64,000 bases of DNA from a virus: IMG/VR virus record IMGVR_UViG_3300032296_003714, positions 1 through 64,000 of that record; one strand, written 5' to 3'. Of the stretch, positions 2 through 12,088 are shown in pieces. The notes under the pieces were generated by a model. The model saw nothing but the letters and a program-made list of their open reading frames with translations. It was not told the DNA's origin and made no database searches. Within the stretch, counting starts at the first letter, position 1. Every line of letters starts with the position of its first letter. The translations under genes and the position numbers were made by a program.

Positions 2-1321
2 CAATTACCAAATATTGAAATTGAGAGACATGAGATTGGAATGATGGATAAAACTCCTGTAGTTCCAGGTAAGACCGATGCGAAAAGGCAATTGGAATTT
101 GAGTGGAAAACAAAACAAATGACTTTCCAAACTTGGGAAATTGCACATTTTAGATTACTCGGTGACGATAGAAAATTACCATACGGTACTTCTATGTTAG
201 AAAAAGCGAGAAGGACATGGAAACAACTTTTATTGTCTGAAGATGCTATGATGATTTATAGAACTTCAAGAGCACCTGAAAGAAGAGTTTTCAAAGTTTT
301 TGTTGGAAATATGAGTGACGATGATGTTGAGGCATATGTAAACCGTGTGGCAGATAAGTTCAAGAGACAACAAGTTATAGACTCCAAAACAGGTAATGTG
401 GATATGAGGTTTAACCAAATGGCGGTTGACCAAGATTATTTTATTCCTGTCAGGGACCCGGCAACTCCATCCCCAATTGAAACTTTACCAGGAGCAACAA
501 ACTTATCTGAGATTGCCGATATTGAATATATTCAGAAAAAATTATTAACGGCACTTAGGGTACCAAAAGCATTTTTGGGATTTGAAGAGGTAGTTGGAGA
601 TGGTAAAAATCTTTCATTACAGGATATTCGTTTTGCAAGAACGATTAATAGAATCCAAAAAAGTATGATTCAAGAACTTAATAAAGTTGCTATCATACAT
701 TTATTTTTATTAGGTTTTGAGGATGAAATAGATAACTTCACACTTGGATTAACCAATCCATCGACTCAGGCCGATTTGCTTAAGATTGATGTTTGGAAGG
801 AAAAAGTATTACTTTATAAAGATTTGGTTATGGACCCAGGTAATGGAATCCAAGCCACATCATCTACATGGGCTAAGAAACATATATTTAATTTCTCTGA
901 TGATGAAATTAGAACTGATTTGCTACAACAAAGATTGGAGAGAGCAATCGGTGAAGAATTAAAACAAACTCCAACAGTAATTAGTAAAACAGGTTTATTT
1001 GATAATATTGATAAACTTTACGGTCAAGCTAGCGGAGGAACCGCAACAGCTTCCAGTGAAGCACCACCTGAATCTGGTGGCGGTGGATTAGAACCTTTGG
1101 GTCCAGAACCTGGTATTGAGCCAGGTGGCGCACCACCACCTCCACCACCTCCACCTGGCGGTGAAGGTGAAGCGGGAGTAACACCAGAATCAAGAATTGA
1201 AAGATTGAATATTTTGGTTGAAAGTAATGTGTTGGAAGGGGCTAGTTTTATAAATTTGGGTCAAGGTAGAGATTCTTTAGGAGAAATTGATAAAGAACTT
1301 GATAAGTTATTAAATCTGTAA
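2..1321 (+). CDS. 20: Portal protein, T4 gp20-like (5' partial)
   Basis: Dodecameric portal vertex protein through which DNA is packaged and ejected. The reading frame is open to the first bases of the window, so the true start lies upstream and the ATG at 41 is internal. The family core is clear: an RRVF segment followed by a VGN motif, then ETLPGA.NL.EI.DIEY.QKKL and the LRVPKAFLGFE block, which match the conserved central part of T4-like gp20 proteins. The C-terminus carries a Gly/Pro-rich stretch with eight consecutive prolines, an addition I do not know from T4. The gene stands directly before the protease-scaffold-capsid series, as in T4. Portal identity is confident; the N-terminus is missing. 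Confidence 0.92.
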   Translation, partial: QLPNIEIERHEIGMMDKTPVVPGKTDAKRQLEFEWKTKQMTFQTWEIAHFRLLGDDRKLPYGTSMLEKARRTWKQLLLSEDAMMIYRTSRAPERRVFKVFVGNMSDDDVEAYVNRVADKFKRQQVIDSKTGNVDMRFNQMAVDQDYFIPVRDPATPSPIETLPGATNLSEIADIEYIQKKLLTALRVPKAFLGFEEVVGDGKNLSLQDIRFARTINRIQKSMIQELNKVAIIHLFLLGFEDEIDNFTLGLTNPSTQADLLKIDVWKEKVLLYKDLVMDPGNGIQATSSTWAKKHIFNFSDDEIRTDLLQQRLERAIGEELKQTPTVISKTGLFDNIDKLYGQASGGTATASSEAPPESGGGGLEPLGPEPGIEPGGAPPPPPPPPGGEGEAGVTPESRIERLNILVESNVLEGASFINLGQGRDSLGEIDKELDKLLNL

Positions 1322-1351: not shown

Positions 1352-2056
1352 ATGACATTCGGTTTAATAAAGTCCATAATAGAGGAGAATCTCCTAGAAT
1401 CTTACAAAGATGAGAAGTCTTTCAAACGAGCAATGAATGAGTTCAAACAAAATGTTTTGAACAATAAAGACATTTCCAAAGTTTATGCTCTATATGATGA
1501 ACTTTCTAAACCGCAGGGTCTGTCTGTTGACGACGCAAAAGATTATTTATCTGAAGGAATTTTAGTAATTCAAAAATTACTAGAAAAAATTAAACTACCC
1601 AAAGTAATTGGCGAGTCAAAAGTTACAAACAAATATAAGCTTATTGATGAATTAGTTTACCTAAATCATATTGTTAATTTATCCGAGAGAGTAGAAATAA
1701 AAAAACAATTAATTAAAAATTTACAAGGAAAATCAAAAGTTACCGAAAGTCATATAAATATTCCAATAAGTAGTATGGTTAAGATTGCCAATCAAACAAT
1801 TAGTGGCTATATTGACGGATTGGATGAAGAAACAAAAAAAGAATTTTTTGAAATTATAAAAGAAGACAATTCTATTTTAGAAAATAAATTTGTATCTCTT
1901 AAAGAAATGGCATTAGCAAAACTAGTACCATTGGCGGAATCACAAGATGATGATGATACAAAAAACAAAATTGAAGAGACAATCAAAAAAATAGAAGAAG
2001 ATACTTTTAGTCAACTTAATTTCTTGAAATTAAAAAAACTACACGAATCTCTTTAA
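1352..2056 (+). CDS. Unknown protein between portal and prohead protease (candidate prohead core)
   Basis: A 234-residue, Lys/Glu/Leu-rich, largely helical protein without transmembrane segments. It opens with an amphipathic stretch (LIKSIIEENLLES) and has an acidic run of Asp around residue 198. It occupies the place held in T4 by the small core genes 67 and 68, between genes 20 and 21, so a prohead core or head-shape role is possible. That is inference from position; no motif shows it. The preceding TATTTATA box suggests late expression. Confidence 0.6.
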   Translation: MTFGLIKSIIEENLLESYKDEKSFKRAMNEFKQNVLNNKDISKVYALYDELSKPQGLSVDDAKDYLSEGILVIQKLLEKIKLPKVIGESKVTNKYKLIDELVYLNHIVNLSERVEIKKQLIKNLQGKSKVTESHINIPISSMVKIANQTISGYIDGLDEETKKEFFEIIKEDNSILENKFVSLKEMALAKLVPLAESQDDDDTKNKIEETIKKIEEDTFSQLNFLKLKKLHESL

Positions 2057-2238
2057 GAATTTTTAATTCTCTGAGTATAAATTGCTTTTAAAATCTGTTT
2101 TCTTTTGACTACAGATTTTTTTACATACTCTTTTCTATCTAACAATTTTTGTTGTTGTTTAGTCTTAATAACTTTGGACTTAAGAACTTTTAACGCTCTC
2201 TCAATACTATCGTTACCTTTTATTTCAATAATTAACAT
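2053..2238 (-). CDS. rpsU: Ribosomal protein bS21 homologue
   Basis: A 61-residue basic protein with the bS21 pattern: IERALK near residue 12, a K.KTKQQQKL segment, DRKEYVKKSVVKRK and finally LKAIYTQ. bS21 sits at the platform of the 30S subunit near the 3' end of 16S rRNA. Tyr54, the residue I recall as stacking on the anti-Shine-Dalgarno tail in the Flavobacterium ribosome structure, is present at the same number here. The gene is opposite to its neighbours and overlaps the end of the upstream gene by four bases. No Shine-Dalgarno is visible; a GATATTTG box, one mismatch from the host TAnnTTTG element, lies just upstream. Viral bS21 genes are known from metagenomes. Confidence 0.85.
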   Translation of the reverse strand: MLIIEIKGNDSIERALKVLKSKVIKTKQQQKLLDRKEYVKKSVVKRKQILKAIYTQRIKNS

Positions 2239-2330
2239 ATACTACAAATATCGCGATTTATTAAAAACTTTGACTAACAAGTTATAATATATTATGTTTA
2301 TAAAAAATAAACTAAGTAATATGAAACTGA

Positions 2331-2759
2331 ATGAAAAAAGGGAAAAGTGTGAAGATGAATTTATCAACATCTTTTAAATCTATGTATGGTACTGTAGATT
2401 CAAAAAATTTAAAATCGTTATACATAAACATACAATCATGGGTTTCACCCAAAACAGAATTAGATAATTGGAACAGGGTTGTTTGTAACCTGAGTAGAGA
2501 ACTTAAACATACAGTATTTGAATCAATTGATACCTCAGTATTTGTAAAGAATTCCATAGTAGATTTAGACCTAAGAACTAGCGGAATATGTTCAGGAAAA
2601 AAGTCTTTTTTTAATTTAGAAATTAATCTTTTTTTAGAAAAACAGTTGGATTTTAAATCCTCAGAATTGAAAGATTCAATCAAAAGAATAGTTAAAAACA
2701 TTCAAAGGACTAACATTACTAACAATGACTATTTTGATTTTTCCTTAACTAAAAAGTAA
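2331..2759 (+). CDS. Unknown conserved-looking phage protein
   Basis: A 142-residue protein of mixed composition, with a Trp-containing N-terminal half (INIQSWVSPKTELDNW) and a Lys-rich C-terminus. I recognise no domain. The start could equally be the ATG at 2355 (MNLSTSF), since neither has a recognisable ribosome site. The opposite strand is also open over most of the length, but the plus frame has better composition and the same direction as the head genes. It is separated from the divergent bS21 gene by 92 bases that must hold both promoters. Function unknown. Confidence 0.6.
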   Translation: MKKGKSVKMNLSTSFKSMYGTVDSKNLKSLYINIQSWVSPKTELDNWNRVVCNLSRELKHTVFESIDTSVFVKNSIVDLDLRTSGICSGKKSFFNLEINLFLEKQLDFKSSELKDSIKRIVKNIQRTNITNNDYFDFSLTKK

Positions 2760-2786: not shown

Positions 2787-2794
2787 TATTTATT
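2787..2794 (+). promoter_or_regulatory. Putative late promoter box TATTTATT before gene 21
   Basis: TATTTATT ends 13 bases before the protease ATG at 2808, in gene-sense orientation, in the short gap after the preceding gene. Confidence 0.5.
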
Positions 2795-2807: not shown

Positions 2808-3530
2808 ATGGAAAAAAAACTAAGAATCCTTGAGGCTCATGAAGTCGGTCATGGAATTTTAATAGAAATGGATGCAGGGTTTGTCTCTCCTATTACAGGT
2901 GAAAATTTAAATTTTATTAAAGAAGGTAAACAATTTGATTACAGAAACCCATTTGAATTTTATGCGGTATTACAAAAATACGATACTCCTAATAGGAATG
3001 GTAGAACTTACCCTGAAAGGATTTTAAAAAGAGAATCAGAAAAATATAAAACTTTGATTCAAAAAGGTTTAGCAACTTCCGAATTAAATCACCCTGAGTC
3101 ATCGTTAATTGATTTAGATAGAGTTTCTCATTCAATAACTGATATATGGTGGGATAAGAATATTCTTATGGGTAAATTAAAATTGTTGACTTCGCCAGGT
3201 TTTCATGAAAGAGGTATTGTTACAACCAAAGGTGATATTGCCGCAAATTTATTAAGACAAGGAGTTACTTTAGGTATTTCATCAAGAGGGGTGGGTTCTC
3301 TTAAAAAAGTGGGAGAAAGAAACGAAGTTCAAGATGATTTCGAATTAATTTGTTTTGATTTGGTTTCTTCACCGTCTACACCAGGTGCATATCTTTTTGA
3401 TGATGTGAATGAAAGAGAAAAGTATGAAGAAAATTTAGAAGAAGAAAAAAGAATTAGAACTGGCTCTGAACCAAAATTGAATCAGTCTATTGATTTAATG
3501 AAAAAATTAACCGATTATTTATCAAAATAA
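2808..3530 (+). CDS. 21: Prohead core protease, T4 gp21-like
   Basis: Maturation serine protease of the prohead that cuts the scaffold, capsid protein and internal proteins before packaging. Visible family features: NRNGRTYPE (residues 62-70), the histidine block SELNHPESS with His95, a second histidine in RVSHSITD (His108), the serine block GVTLGISSRGVGS with Ser158/Ser159, and the late signature CFDLVSSPSTPGAYL. The length of 240 is close to T4 gp21 (212). It sits between the core and capsid genes. The expected (I/L)xE-type cleavage site is present in the capsid protein at residue 60. Confidence 0.93.
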   Translation: MEKKLRILEAHEVGHGILIEMDAGFVSPITGENLNFIKEGKQFDYRNPFEFYAVLQKYDTPNRNGRTYPERILKRESEKYKTLIQKGLATSELNHPESSLIDLDRVSHSITDIWWDKNILMGKLKLLTSPGFHERGIVTTKGDIAANLLRQGVTLGISSRGVGSLKKVGERNEVQDDFELICFDLVSSPSTPGAYLFDDVNEREKYEENLEEEKRIRTGSEPKLNQSIDLMKKLTDYLSK

Positions 3531-3780: not shown

Positions 3781-4335
3781 ATGATAAGTATATACGACAA
3801 TTTTATTAATCCGAATAATATTGAAAGACTACATAATTTTTGTACAGCCCAAGCCTTTACTGTTTCAGGTAAATCAAGAGGAACACCAACAGAGAAATAT
3901 CAAGATAGAGATTTAAGTTTGATATCTTTATTAAATAAAACAGAAAATCATAGTTTTTTAGACGATATACAAAATGACATTTTGAATGTTATTGGTACCC
4001 ATTACTCATGTTTTAGACGTTATATAAATGCATTCAAATTTTCAGATGCTTCGTTGTCCCATGTAGACTACTGTAAACCAAATACAGAATGTAAAACAGC
4101 AATAATTTATTGTAATGGTGAATGGGATGTTGATTGGGGTGGAGAAACGGTTTTTCTTGATTCTTTGAATCCTTCTGCGGAAATAATTAAAAGTGTAATA
4201 CCTAAACCTGGTAGAATGGTTGTTTTTGAATCACAAACACCACATATTGCAAGGGTCCCAAATTTATTATATCCCAAATATAGATATACATTAGTGTATA
4301 ATTTTAGTACTGAAATCAAGAAAATTATTGATTAA
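3781..4335 (+). CDS. 2OG-Fe(II) oxygenase, prolyl 4-hydroxylase-like
   Basis: A 184-residue protein with the non-haem iron facial triad of 2-oxoglutarate dioxygenases: His94 and Asp96 in SLSHVDY, the distal His155 in TPHIARV, and Arg168 in YRYTLVYNF for binding the 2-oxoglutarate carboxylate. WGGETVFLD and PKPGRMVVFES are typical of the prolyl 4-hydroxylase branch. Such enzymes hydroxylate proteins, nucleobases or small molecules; T4-like phages often carry one, usually unassigned. It sits among head genes between two terminators. The window also has a GT60-type transferase and Pro-rich fibres, which makes proline a candidate substrate (inference). The start is the ATG just after the terminator hairpin. 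Confidence 0.85.
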   Translation: MISIYDNFINPNNIERLHNFCTAQAFTVSGKSRGTPTEKYQDRDLSLISLLNKTENHSFLDDIQNDILNVIGTHYSCFRRYINAFKFSDASLSHVDYCKPNTECKTAIIYCNGEWDVDWGGETVFLDSLNPSAEIIKSVIPKPGRMVVFESQTPHIARVPNLLYPKYRYTLVYNFSTEIKKIID

Positions 4336-4370: not shown

Positions 4371-4378
4371 TATTTATT
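4371..4378 (+). promoter_or_regulatory. Putative late promoter box TATTTATT before scaffold and capsid
   Basis: TATTTATT ends 19 bases before the scaffold ATG at 4398, between a terminator-like repeat and the gene. As no such box precedes the capsid gene, this is the likely source of the scaffold-capsid transcript. Confidence 0.55.
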
Positions 4379-4397: not shown

Positions 4398-5975
4398 ATG
4401 CAAGAAAATAAGAATCTTGTTGAAGAGGCACTCATTCAAATGAAAAATGTTGAAGAGGCTATTGCCGAAAATGCAAAAGGAATACTTGCTTCTACTATGA
4501 AGGAAGAAATCAGCCAATTAGTAAAAGAATCTCTTTCTGAACAAGAAGAGTTGGATTTAGATGTAGACACAGATGTTGAACCAACATCCGTGGATGATGA
4601 AACAGGTATATCTTTAGATACTGACGTAACTTCTGACGACAACTCAGACGAAATGGAAGTAAGTATGGGTATGAATGTTGATTCTAATAAACCAATCGAT
4701 TTATCTGATGCATCCGACGAGTTTATTTTGAAAGTATTTAAGTCTATGGGTGAAGATGATGGTATCATCGTAAAAAAAGACGGTGACGACATTCATTTAA
4801 CTGACAATAATACAGATTCAGAATATCTTGTTAAACAACTAGGTGAATCTGAAGAAGAAAATTATGAAAATATGGAATACAACGAACAAGAAGACGACAA
4901 TGTTCAAGATGTAATTGACGCTATTTTCTCAGACAGTTCTGATGTTTCTGATTATTCAGGTTCAGACGAAGTTATGGATGACGAAGATGAAGTTGTTTAC
5001 GAAATTGAATTTACTGAAGACGATGATTCTGATGATGAAATCGAAGAGTCTGAAGAAATGGACGAATCTGATGAAATGGAAGAGTCTGAAGAAATGGACG
5101 AATCTGATGAAATGGAAGAGTCTGAAGAAATGGAAGAGTCTGAAGAAATGGACGAATCTGATGAAATGGAAGAGTCTGAAGAAATGGACGAATCTGATGA
5201 AATGGAAGAGTCTGAAGAAATGGACGAAGAAAATTGGCAGATGGATGAATCTTATAGTCATAAGAAGTCAAAAAAAGTAGAAACAAAAGAAAGTAAAATG
5301 TCCGTTAAACCTAAAGGTGTTGGAATGGGTAAAGCTAAATTCTCATATAAGAAATCATCAGGTGGTTTCAGTGAGGACAAAAAAGAAGGTCCTAAAACAA
5401 TGGGAACAGGTAAAGCCAAGTTCGAATACAAGAAAGGTGAAAACATGGAAGGTAAAATGAAACCTTTGAAAAAGAAAGTAGAAACTAAAGAGGCTGCACG
5501 TACTTACGCTTTCGGTTCTAAGGACAAATCAAGAGGTCTTAGAAAAGGAGTTACGCCTAATAGGAATTTAACTTTCGAATCATTGGAAACAGAAGTTAGT
5601 TCTTTGAGAGAAAAGAATGAAGAGTACAGAAAAGCATTAAATGTATTTAGAGAGAAACTTAACGAAGTTGCTATTTTTAACTCTAACCTAGCATATGCTA
5701 CAAGACTTTTCACTGAACACTCAACAACTAAAAAAGAAAAAATAAACATTCTTAGAAGATTCGACGATGTTGATTCACTTAAAGAGTCTAAAGGACTTTA
5801 TAAAGTAATCAAAGAAGAGTTAACTAAGACTGATACAAAATCACTTAATGAATCTGTTGGTAACAAACTGACAAAATCAGTACAATCAGGTTCATCAACT
5901 ACTTTAATCGAAAGTAAAACATACGAAAATCCTCAGTTCATGAGAATTAAAGATTTGATTACTAAGATTGGGTAA
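4398..5975 (+). CDS. 22: Prohead core/scaffold protein, T4 gp22-like
   Basis: A 525-residue, extremely acidic protein. Residues about 1-45 form a helical segment, followed by an Asp/Glu-rich region that includes a tandem repeat of SEEMDESDEMEE type, then a Lys-rich linker with two similar KPKGVGMGKAKF/PKTMGTGKAKF motifs. A C-terminal coiled coil (LETEVSSLREKNEEYRKALNV) leads into FNSNLAYATRLFTEHS and RRFDDVDSLKESKGLYK, the part I recognise from gp22-type scaffolds. It would form the inner core around which the capsid assembles and be degraded by gp21. The start is the ATG 19 bases after the late box; the in-frame upstream extension lies in the terminator-like repeat. It lies directly upstream of gene 23 as in T4. 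Confidence 0.85.
   Translation: MQENKNLVEEALIQMKNVEEAIAENAKGILASTMKEEISQLVKESLSEQEELDLDVDTDVEPTSVDDETGISLDTDVTSDDNSDEMEVSMGMNVDSNKPIDLSDASDEFILKVFKSMGEDDGIIVKKDGDDIHLTDNNTDSEYLVKQLGESEEENYENMEYNEQEDDNVQDVIDAIFSDSSDVSDYSGSDEVMDDEDEVVYEIEFTEDDDSDDEIEESEEMDESDEMEESEEMDESDEMEESEEMEESEEMDESDEMEESEEMDESDEMEESEEMDEENWQMDESYSHKKSKKVETKESKMSVKPKGVGMGKAKFSYKKSSGGFSEDKKEGPKTMGTGKAKFEYKKGENMEGKMKPLKKKVETKEAARTYAFGSKDKSRGLRKGVTPNRNLTFESLETEVSSLREKNEEYRKALNVFREKLNEVAIFNSNLAYATRLFTEHSTTKKEKINILRRFDDVDSLKESKGLYKVIKEELTKTDTKSLNESVGNKLTKSVQSGSSTTLIESKTYENPQFMRIKDLITKIG
5044..5229 (+). repeat. In-frame 36-bp tandem repeat in scaffold gene
   Basis: The 36-base unit begins GAAGAGTCTGAAGAAATG and continues GACGAATCTGATGAAATG. 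It is repeated about five times with almost no base differences, and one copy is interrupted by an extra 18-base half unit. It encodes a 12-residue acidic repeat. Base identity, not just protein similarity, points to recent slippage or unequal recombination. Confidence 0.9.
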
Positions 5976-6013: not shown

Positions 6014-7816
6014 ATGGGAGCTTTATTAGAATCAGGTCTTGTTGGTAACATCGGTCTTAAGCACCTTAAAGTTATCAAAGAAGACACAATTAACAAATGG
6101 GATGGCCTAGGTTTCTTAGAGGGACTTAAAGGTCACATGAAAGAGAACGTGGCTCAACTTTATGAGAACCAAGCGTCTCACTTAATCAACGAAGCATCTA
6201 CAACTGCTGACTCAGGTGCTTTCGAAACTGTTGTATTTCCAATCATCAGAAGAGTTTTCTCTAAGTTATTGGCTAACGACATCGTATCTGTACAAGCAAT
6301 GAACTTACCAATCGGTAAATTGTTCTACTTTGTACCTCAAATCCAAAATTATGCTGCGGCTAATGCACACTATGCACCTTACGGAGCACCAAATGGACCA
6401 GCAGACCCTAATACTGGATATAACTGGAATGAAGGAAGAGACCTTTATGACAGATTCTACGAAGGTAACGAACCAGCATTAGACCCTCCAGGTCTTTTCG
6501 ACTACTCTAAAGGTCAGTTTTCTGCTATCACAGGTGACGCGGTTACTGCTGTTTGGAACAGTACAACATTAAATCTTACTCCTTCAGGATACACTGCAGG
6601 TAGTGGTCCTGATGCAGGTGCTTACAGAAAAGTATTGATTGTTATGTCAGGTTTTGCTCAAGTAGCGGCTGGTAAGTTAATTGGACCAGACGGTAACCCA
6701 ATCGACAACGAATCATTCTTGTCTGATTTGACTATCTACGGTTCTTCTGCAAATCAATATACGTCAGCAAACACTGCAAATCCTTATCTTTTCAGAGTTG
6801 TGACTCAGAGATACGGTAAGGGTATTGTTCAGTACGGTAATAATAATACAGAAGCATTATTCCCTGAATCAAAAACAGGTGGTGGTTATTATGACAACAT
6901 CTGTGATGTAAATGGATTAATCTATCTTGAGGTTGACCTTCAAGTACCTTGTACTGTAGGACAAAATTCTCTTGATGGTTATTCAGGTTCAACATTCGGT
7001 TCTACTGCAGCTATCAACAATGCGTTTGTTCCTGTATATAGAATTTATAAGAATCTTGAATTCGAAGATAAGATTGGTGAGGTTTCTTTCGACCTTCAAT
7101 CTGTAACAGTTTCTGTAACTGAAAGAAAATTAAGAGCACAATGGTCACCAGAAATGGCACAAGACGTTGCAGCTTTCCACAACATCGACGCTGAGGCTGA
7201 ATTAACAGCTTTATTGTCTGAGCAAGTTGCGGCTGAAATCGATAGAGAAATCTTGAGAGACCTTAGAAAAGGTGCGGCTTGGAACTTGAGATGGGATTAC
7301 AACGGTTGGAAGAGACTTGGAGCTAACGCAGTTCCTTACACTCAGAAAGACTGGAACCAAACTCTTATCACTGCAATCAACCAAATTTCAGCTCAAATCC
7401 ATAAGTCTACTCTTAGAGGTGGTGCTAACTGGATTGTTGTATCTTCTGAAATCAGTGCAATTTTTGATGACTTGGAGTATTTCCACGTTTCAAATGCGGC
7501 TCCTGAGCAAGACCAATACAACATGGGTATCGAAAGAATCGGTACACTTGCAGGTAGATATCAAGTCTACAGAGACCCTTACTTCCCAGCTAACCAAGTT
7601 CTTCTTGGTCACAAAGGAACGTCTCTACTTGACACTGGTTACATCTACGCACCATATGTACCTTTACAACTTACTCCAACAATGTACAATCCGTTCAACT
7701 TCACACCAATCAAAGGTATCATGACTAGATACGCTAAGAAAATGGTGAACAACAGATTCTATGGTAGAATCACAGTTGACGGTGTAAGAACATTCGATTT
7801 GAGAGAGTTGAGATAA
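6014..7816 (+). CDS. 23: Major capsid protein, T4 gp23-like
   Basis: A 600-residue HK97-fold capsid protein. Family features include PIIRRVFSKLLANDIVSVQAMNLPIGKLFYF (start about residue 75), the central VTERKLRAQWSPEMAQDVAAFHNIDAE block, WIVVSSEISAI and the C-terminal NRFYGRITVDGVRTFDLRELR region. The N-terminal 60 residues look like the cleaved delta domain: they end in SHLINE before ASTTADSGAF, giving an Ile-Asn-Glu site comparable to the T4 cut after Glu65. It is larger than T4 gp23 (521). The gene uses many C-ending codons (AAC, ATC, TTC) unlike its surroundings, as expected for the most abundant protein. A strong terminator follows. Confidence 0.96.
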   Translation: MGALLESGLVGNIGLKHLKVIKEDTINKWDGLGFLEGLKGHMKENVAQLYENQASHLINEASTTADSGAFETVVFPIIRRVFSKLLANDIVSVQAMNLPIGKLFYFVPQIQNYAAANAHYAPYGAPNGPADPNTGYNWNEGRDLYDRFYEGNEPALDPPGLFDYSKGQFSAITGDAVTAVWNSTTLNLTPSGYTAGSGPDAGAYRKVLIVMSGFAQVAAGKLIGPDGNPIDNESFLSDLTIYGSSANQYTSANTANPYLFRVVTQRYGKGIVQYGNNNTEALFPESKTGGGYYDNICDVNGLIYLEVDLQVPCTVGQNSLDGYSGSTFGSTAAINNAFVPVYRIYKNLEFEDKIGEVSFDLQSVTVSVTERKLRAQWSPEMAQDVAAFHNIDAEAELTALLSEQVAAEIDREILRDLRKGAAWNLRWDYNGWKRLGANAVPYTQKDWNQTLITAINQISAQIHKSTLRGGANWIVVSSEISAIFDDLEYFHVSNAAPEQDQYNMGIERIGTLAGRYQVYRDPYFPANQVLLGHKGTSLLDTGYIYAPYVPLQLTPTMYNPFNFTPIKGIMTRYAKKMVNNRFYGRITVDGVRTFDLRELR

Positions 7817-7878: not shown

Positions 7879-7886
7879 TATTTATA
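7879..7886 (+). promoter_or_regulatory. Putative late promoter box TATTTATA
   Basis: TATTTATA ends 16 bases before the ATG at 7903 and follows the capsid terminator, so the next gene needs its own promoter here. Confidence 0.6.
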
Positions 7887-10975: not shown

Positions 10976-11695
10976 ATGAATAAAAAGCATATTAGTGAAG
11001 CAACTGGGTCATCGAGTTCAGGGAAATTTAAGGTTCCAATAGTTTTGGCACCGGAGTTATGGAAAGAAGACCAACTTGCCCCTTTTACAAATTCAGTTTC
11101 TCACTATTTAAATGCTGAGTTAGCCTATGAAGAAATGGATGGTGATTTTAAAGAAACACCACAAGAGAGGACTAAAATAGAAAATAAAACAAAAAAAATA
11201 TCAAAATTGGACCAATATCTAAAACAATTTTATACAGGACAAAATGATGAGGATGGTGCAAATATTGCCGACATCCAATCACCAACAGACATTATTAAAA
11301 AAGCGGTTGGTCCGATAAAAGAAGAAAAATCTTTTTTGAATGAAGATTTAGCAGTTTGGTTCGGAACCAAGAAAAAACCTAAAGGTAGTAAACAACCCGC
11401 AGGTCCTTGGGTTAATATATGTAGAAAAAAAGAAGGTGGTGGTCATCCTCCTTGTGGTAGGTCGGAAGCTAAAAATAGTGCATACCCTAAATGTAGGGCA
11501 AGAAGTGTTGCATCAAGAATGACAGACTCACAAAAGAAATCTGCTTGTGCACAAAAAAGAAGAGAAGAAAAAACCAATCCGAAAACAGGTACTGGAAACA
11601 AACCTAAAATGGTATCATACAAACCAAGAAAAACAGAGTCTGTTGATAACTTAATTAAACAAATAATTAAAGAACACTTATCTAATAGAATCTAA
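10976..11695 (+). CDS. Basic Cys-containing phage protein (DUF5872-like C-terminus)
   Basis: A 239-residue protein starting MNKKHISEATG. Residues about 5-105 are polar, with ALSxYLN-like helices. The C-terminal part is strongly basic with spaced cysteines: PWVNICRKKEGGGHPPCGR, YPKCRARSVASRMTDSQKKSA and a Lys/Arg-rich tail, ending in an amphipathic helix (VDNLIKQIIKEHLS). The basic part resembles DUF5872-type proteins of phages and large viruses by pattern memory. A nucleic-acid-binding, packaged protein fits this composition but is not shown. It converges with, and overlaps by 18 bases, the next gene. Confidence 0.65.
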   Translation: MNKKHISEATGSSSSGKFKVPIVLAPELWKEDQLAPFTNSVSHYLNAELAYEEMDGDFKETPQERTKIENKTKKISKLDQYLKQFYTGQNDEDGANIADIQSPTDIIKKAVGPIKEEKSFLNEDLAVWFGTKKKPKGSKQPAGPWVNICRKKEGGGHPPCGRSEAKNSAYPKCRARSVASRMTDSQKKSACAQKRREEKTNPKTGTGNKPKMVSYKPRKTESVDNLIKQIIKEHLSNRI

Positions 11696-12088
11696 AATAT
11701 TTTTTAGAGAACTTTGAATATTAGACCTAAATTCTGTCTCTAAAGAAAGTCTAATAGAATCTAATTTATTATCAAAATTAGATAATATTTCTTGATAGGA
11801 ATCATCATCTTCTATAACTAAAGTGTAACTGTATATGTGATTGATAATATTGATAACTCTATTTTCTATCATGATAAACATACTTAGTTCATCATTTTTT
11901 ATAAACCTTTTTTGTGATAAAGGAGCTAAGGTTAATACAGAATCTTCCCTTTCAATTAACTTTTTTGTTATCTCAACACAGAATTTTTCTTCTTCAGTGA
12001 TTGGAATTTTTGGGTCAAATTTATCTTTTAGATAAAGATAAACTCGGAACATTAATTTAGGTATGTATCCTACAACATTTGCTTTCAT
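11678..12088 (-). CDS. Unknown helical protein
   Basis: A 136-residue protein predicted to be mostly alpha-helical, with a VLTLAPLSQKRFIKNDELS centre and an acidic C-terminal half. No domain is recognised. It ends inside the last 18 bases of the convergent upstream gene. A TATATTTG box at 12093-12100 lies five bases before its start and matches the host -7 element, so it may be expressed early and separately from the structural genes that precede it on this strand. Confidence 0.6.
   Translation of the reverse strand: MKANVVGYIPKLMFRVYLYLKDKFDPKIPITEEEKFCVEITKKLIEREDSVLTLAPLSQKRFIKNDELSMFIMIENRVINIINHIYSYTLVIEDDDSYQEILSNFDNKLDSIRLSLETEFRSNIQSSLKNILDSIR

Follow-up and report, generated by a model that had tools for sequence, protein, structure and literature searches.

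A phage bS21 gene whose control signals appear to lack the autoregulatory feature of host rpsU

Do ribosomes of differing protein content choose different mRNAs? The question remains open, and the bS21 loop of Flavobacterium is among the clearest bacterial cases in which ribosome composition feeds back on mRNA choice. Host bS21 is autoregulated, with bS21-free ribosomes recognizing the very strong Shine-Dalgarno (SD) sequence of rpsU, and the Y54A substitution or truncation of the C terminus was shown experimentally to lift the anti-SD block (McNutt et al. 2023, PMC9976891). A bS21 gene carried by a phage raises the question of whether it is governed by the same loop; one without the loop's control signal would provide a sharp and cheap test of ribosome heterogeneity.

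The window analyzed here comprises 64,000 nucleotides and forms the start of a 107,329-base virus record, which opens inside a portal gene. At 2053..2238 on the reverse strand, an ATG-initiated gene encodes a 61-residue protein that the earlier note had taken for bS21 with Tyr at position 54, an assignment borne out on both counts. The protein matched Pfam Ribosomal_S21 above its curated cut-off of 27 (36.4 bits, E=4.3e-9) and scored just under the 28.95-bit cut-off of the NCBIfam equivalog TIGR00030 (26.8 bits, E=3.4e-6). The closest solved structure was bS21 of Flavobacterium johnsoniae (7jil), and this alignment with a host-type bS21, which had been suggested as a check, ran without gaps over residues 1-61 (E=4.7e-10) with Tyr at residue 54 of both proteins. 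The phage protein therefore carries the aromatic residue 54 that marks the anti-SD-sequestering bS21 of Bacteroidia. The predicted model (pLDDT 82) contained helices at 12-26, 28-35, and 41-60, and the first nine matches in a fold search were all small chains from ribosome structures, at E values of 0.2 or worse. Against seven close relatives, dN/dS was 0.03-0.12, so the coding is real and under purifying selection. The gene is a genuine bS21.

The surrounding head cluster is T4-like, with the gene order portal, gene 1352, reversed bS21, gene 2331, protease, scaffold, and major capsid protein (MCP). On the forward strand lie the portal gene of the T4 gp20 family (41..1321; domain match, truncated by the record start), a convergent neighbor encoding 234 residues (1352..2056) that overlaps the bS21 3' end by 4 nt, a divergent conserved partner gene encoding 142 residues (2331..2759), the gp21-type prohead protease (2808..3530; Peptidase_S77 domain match), a scaffold-position gene between protease and MCP (4398..5975; kept in 118/147 loci), and the gp23 MCP (6014..7816; domain match). 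The order with reversed bS21 was kept in all 137 viral loci having enough upstream flank, a count that excludes five unrelated contigs carrying another kind of bS21, and gene 2331 was likewise present in 137/137. The gene had been described as placed backwards inside the head operon; the reverse orientation stood, while the setting is more exactly a head-gene cluster in which bS21 points away from gene 2331 and runs tail to tail into gene 1352, with an overlap of 4 nt in 84/139 loci and of 6-9 nt in 50/139. By position alone, gene 1352 occupies the slot of T4's small prohead core genes. For gene 2331, the fold search with its predicted model returned nothing from the PDB at E<0.01 and one uncharacterized viral relative. 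No RNA families or tRNAs were found in the window, and among annotated phage records the only relatives were four uncultured megaphages (46-54%).

Chen et al. (2022, PMC9723584) described freshwater phages of Bacteroidota hosts whose bS21 has a conserved aromatic residue 54 and an altered N-terminal helix. Their clades a-e and the present record share a reversed bS21 flanked by two hypothetical families, with TerL, portal, protease, and MCP around it, as well as Tyr54, the altered helix, and a bS21 distinct from host sequences; GC content is 31.0-33.7% in the Chen phages and 32.6% here. TerL similarity above about 70% is a further criterion for the Chen group; this record is a 107-kb fragment matched by layout and bS21. 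With bS21 reversed between two hypothetical genes in the structural cluster, the record is one more member of that group, and gene 2331 is possibly, as one of two candidates, the counterpart of their bS21_CN. The hypothesis that phage bS21 substitutes on the ribosome was already proposed in that paper. The reading in the earlier note, partly supported here, was therefore mostly rediscovery, since layout, Tyr54, and the substitution idea are found in PMC9723584 and autoregulation in PMC9976891. The loss of the SD, a box adjacent to the ATG, a divergent promoter pair, and a nested clade without bS21 are all unreported by Chen et al.

In a tree of 64 columns only, in which the inner forks were weak, 74 viral bS21 sequences formed one clade (97/99) on a long stem, separate from 77 Bacteroidota sequences. 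A further five viral bS21 fell elsewhere. The proposal that phylogeny would reveal the host donor thus failed, and recent transfer from a host was ruled out by the tree. The separate clade, its long stem, and its fixed residues point instead to an old capture. Val23, Ile24, Lys27, and Gln28 occurred in 74/74 viral sequences and Ser21 in 73/74, within a viral-specific first-helix motif (LKSKVIKTKQ in this record), while the usual host residues at positions 21, 23, 24, 27, and 28 are R, F, D/E, G, and T. Part of this N-terminal divergence was already noted by Chen et al. (PMC9723584). Lys17, Lys20, Lys22, Arg46, and Ala52 are common to viral and host bS21, and residue 54 is Tyr in 71/74 viral and 74/77 host sequences and His in the remaining three of each.

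A nested clade (99/97) has lost bS21 and retains both neighbors, with a terminator-like hairpin between them in its place (L406, L410, L418, L419, L420, L423, L426, and L427). No other S21 was found in these eight records, all of which are fragments. Because the gene was lost while both neighbors were kept, bS21 is dispensable in this clade, and these phages do not strictly depend on what it does. Gene 2331 was considered as an obligate partner of bS21 and rejected, as it persists in phages without bS21. A putative remnant of the bS21 start in this clade was too short and AT-rich to claim.

The earlier statement that nearly all genes here lack SD sequences was substantiated across the record: of 95 genes, none formed an anti-SD duplex of ≤-10 kcal/mol and 1.1% formed one of ≤-8 kcal/mol, similar to shuffled sequences. 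Gene starts were enriched in A at -3, -5, and -10 to -13. The start regions of the 95 genes also had less structure than the gene interiors. Since an SD is missing from most Bacteroidota genes in any case, the lack of one at phage bS21 is telling solely beside host rpsU. Start regions were therefore compared between 80 Bacteroidota genomes and 147 viral loci. In the host genomes, which were the closest matches to the query and not a random sample, the duplex of rpsU with the 16S tail had a median of -16.9 kcal/mol and reached ≤-9 kcal/mol in 60/80, the other 20 also being without a strong SD. A strong SD was found in 0/147 viral bS21 starts; the best duplex, at -4.0 kcal/mol, was far from the extended SD (< -13 kcal/mol) that characterizes autoregulated rpsU.

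A second difference concerned the promoter. The near-host promoter box reported previously was confirmed as GATATTTG (TATATTTG in some relatives) at 2245..2252 on the reverse strand, a host-type -7 box one base away from the Bacteroidota consensus TAnnTTTG. The idea that bS21 has a perfect host promoter in the window was rejected, given this mismatch and the lack of a clear -33 element. The box ends 6 nt before the ATG, separated from it by the spacer TAGTAT (2239..2244, reverse strand). Its distance to the ATG was 5-7 nt for viral bS21 versus 17-48 nt for host rpsU; under a strict count, a box 5-7 nt before the ATG was present in 37/61 distinct viral upstreams and 0/80 host rpsU genes, and several of the 24 viral upstreams that failed the strict test had TATTTAT or other variants. 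Within this record, bS21 was the only one of 95 genes with a box so placed. In Flavobacterium psychrophilum, the -7 box spans -12 to -5 relative to the transcription start, and 5.5% of mRNAs are leaderless (PMC9723704). Phage bS21 has its promoter box where a leaderless gene would be expected to have it, 5-7 nt from the ATG, and by the F. psychrophilum spacing its mRNA is predicted to start at about 2240 with a leader of ∼2 nt, so that an SD would have no room before bS21. Host rpsU of Flavobacteriales (PMC9976891) shares the protein family and Tyr54 but differs in having an extended SD and a leader, estimated from box positions at roughly 12-45 nt; phage bS21 has neither. This regulatory contrast was not found in the literature searched, which lay mostly outside subscription journals, and phage bS21 control signals without the autoregulation feature of host rpsU look new.

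Gene 2331 is preceded by a promoter of its own on the opposite strand, with a -33 element TTTGAC at 2269..2274 and a -7 element TATGTTTA at 2293..2300 (both forward strand). The host-type arrangement TTTG-N20-TAnnTTT was found in 28/33 dereplicated loci, with a spacing of 20 every time. A pattern scan had seemed to support GTCAAA as a bS21-specific element. This is TTTGAC read in reverse, the -33 of the gene 2331 promoter with its exact N20 spacing, and it is also kept in the clade that lost bS21; on both grounds it was dropped. A short ORF at 2321-2377 on the forward strand (MKLNEKREKCEDEFINIF) overlaps gene 2331, starting 10 nt before it in a different frame; relatives show a similar start context.

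Elsewhere in the record, a candidate phage-type promoter motif, TATTTAT, was found at 18/37 intergenic starts, 31-fold over its genome frequency and without a -33 partner. It sits 11-30 nt before many gene starts record-wide and occurs also in L069/L070; in the window it precedes the protease gene (2787..2793, forward strand) and recurs at 1322-1328, 4371-4377, and 7879-7885. It was absent upstream of bS21 in this record. By these motifs, bS21 and gene 2331 seem to form a host-type promoter island amid genes with the phage-type motif, although the two promoter classes are not absolute, since some relatives (e.g., L021 and L187) carry TATTTAT at the bS21 box.

The reading that we favor, at a probability of roughly 55%, is that phage bS21 replaces host bS21 on the 30S subunit, leaves the anti-SD concealed, and is expressed independently of the host feedback. 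It is plausible that the protein substitutes in this way while Tyr54 maintains the block on the anti-SD: with Tyr54 and the other host-shared residues in place, the 16S 3' tail would stay tucked away and the ribosomes would stay SD-blind, which would suit the SD-less, A-rich phage mRNAs. The retained Tyr54 argues for preservation of the host's SD-blind mode over a change of it, and any altered mRNA selectivity would then have to stem from the changed N-terminal helix. Lacking an SD and having a host-type -7 box at the ATG and a predicted, nearly leaderless mRNA, the gene would be uncoupled from the host loop. Host RNA polymerase could then provide a steady supply of phage bS21, filling bS21-free subunits and causing host rpsU synthesis to fall; given the missing feedback signal, the phage could make its own bS21 while the host supply is shut off. 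It is conceivable, at rather less than even odds, that the leaderless, SD-free message not only escapes SD-based autoregulation but is possibly favored by bS21-free ribosomes, with the phage protein replacing the host's and shutting off rpsU. Such favoring, speculative for Bacteroidota, is suggested by the translation of leaderless mRNAs on E. coli ribosomes depleted of several proteins, bS1, uS2, and bS21 being among those lost (PMC4929434). Incorporation need not help translation, because E. coli ribosomes into which a pelagiphage bS21 was incorporated had their activity cut to about 5% (Mizuno et al. 2019, PMC6375957, a study that covered other viral ribosomal proteins as well). That protein, from HTVC008M, is likewise phage-borne and under purifying selection, a likeness drawn by description, but its host is of Proteobacterial type, unlike that of the present phage.

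An alternative is a simple top-up, in which the loosely bound, late-assembled bS21 is resupplied as host rpsU mRNA is lost, so that ribosomes are kept complete and their mRNA preference is unchanged. The conserved C-terminal residues and Tyr54 agree with it, as does a phage bS21 that is SD-less like other phage genes; yet Ser21, Val23, Ile24, Lys27, and Gln28, phage-only residues of the first helix across 74 sequences, exceed what plain replacement needs, and we consider this explanation rather unlikely. Equally in need of weighing is the specialized late ribosome of Chen et al. (2022), in which bS21 made with the capsid genes steers ribosomes to late phage mRNAs. The location in the head cluster and the high RNA levels reported for bS21 and MCP (PMC9723584) speak for it, but bS21 has a host-type box in place of the TATTTAT of the surrounding structural genes. 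Moreover, strand-specific read counting is unmentioned in the text of that paper, and bS21 lies antisense in a highly transcribed cluster; with a tail-to-tail overlap of 4-9 nt with gene 1352 in 134/139 loci, unstranded counts at bS21 are hard to interpret. We therefore regard a late-ribosome role as doubtful. The fixed changes in the N-terminal half, with the part nearest the 16S tail kept, might instead let the altered helix evade or disarm a host system acting on bS21 or the ribosome, and the nested loss of bS21 could mirror hosts without such a system. This counter-defense role is purely inferential and improbable; we know of no host defense with such a target. For the favored reading, substitution outside the host loop, the choice of mutations and comparisons can be guided by the phage-only residues, by the conservation of the box position, and by a clade that naturally lacks bS21.

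Other features of the window were recorded in passing. A 2OG-Fe(II) oxygenase-like gene (3781-4335, forward strand) lies in the interval between protease and scaffold and was matched in the flanks of only 1/147 relatives. The scaffold-position protein contains an acidic repeat (EESEEMDESDEM-like) at ∼5040-5235. A 136-residue gene of unknown family at 11678-12088 on the reverse strand has a perfect TTG-N19-TATATTTG 4 nt before its ATG, making it a candidate second leaderless gene.
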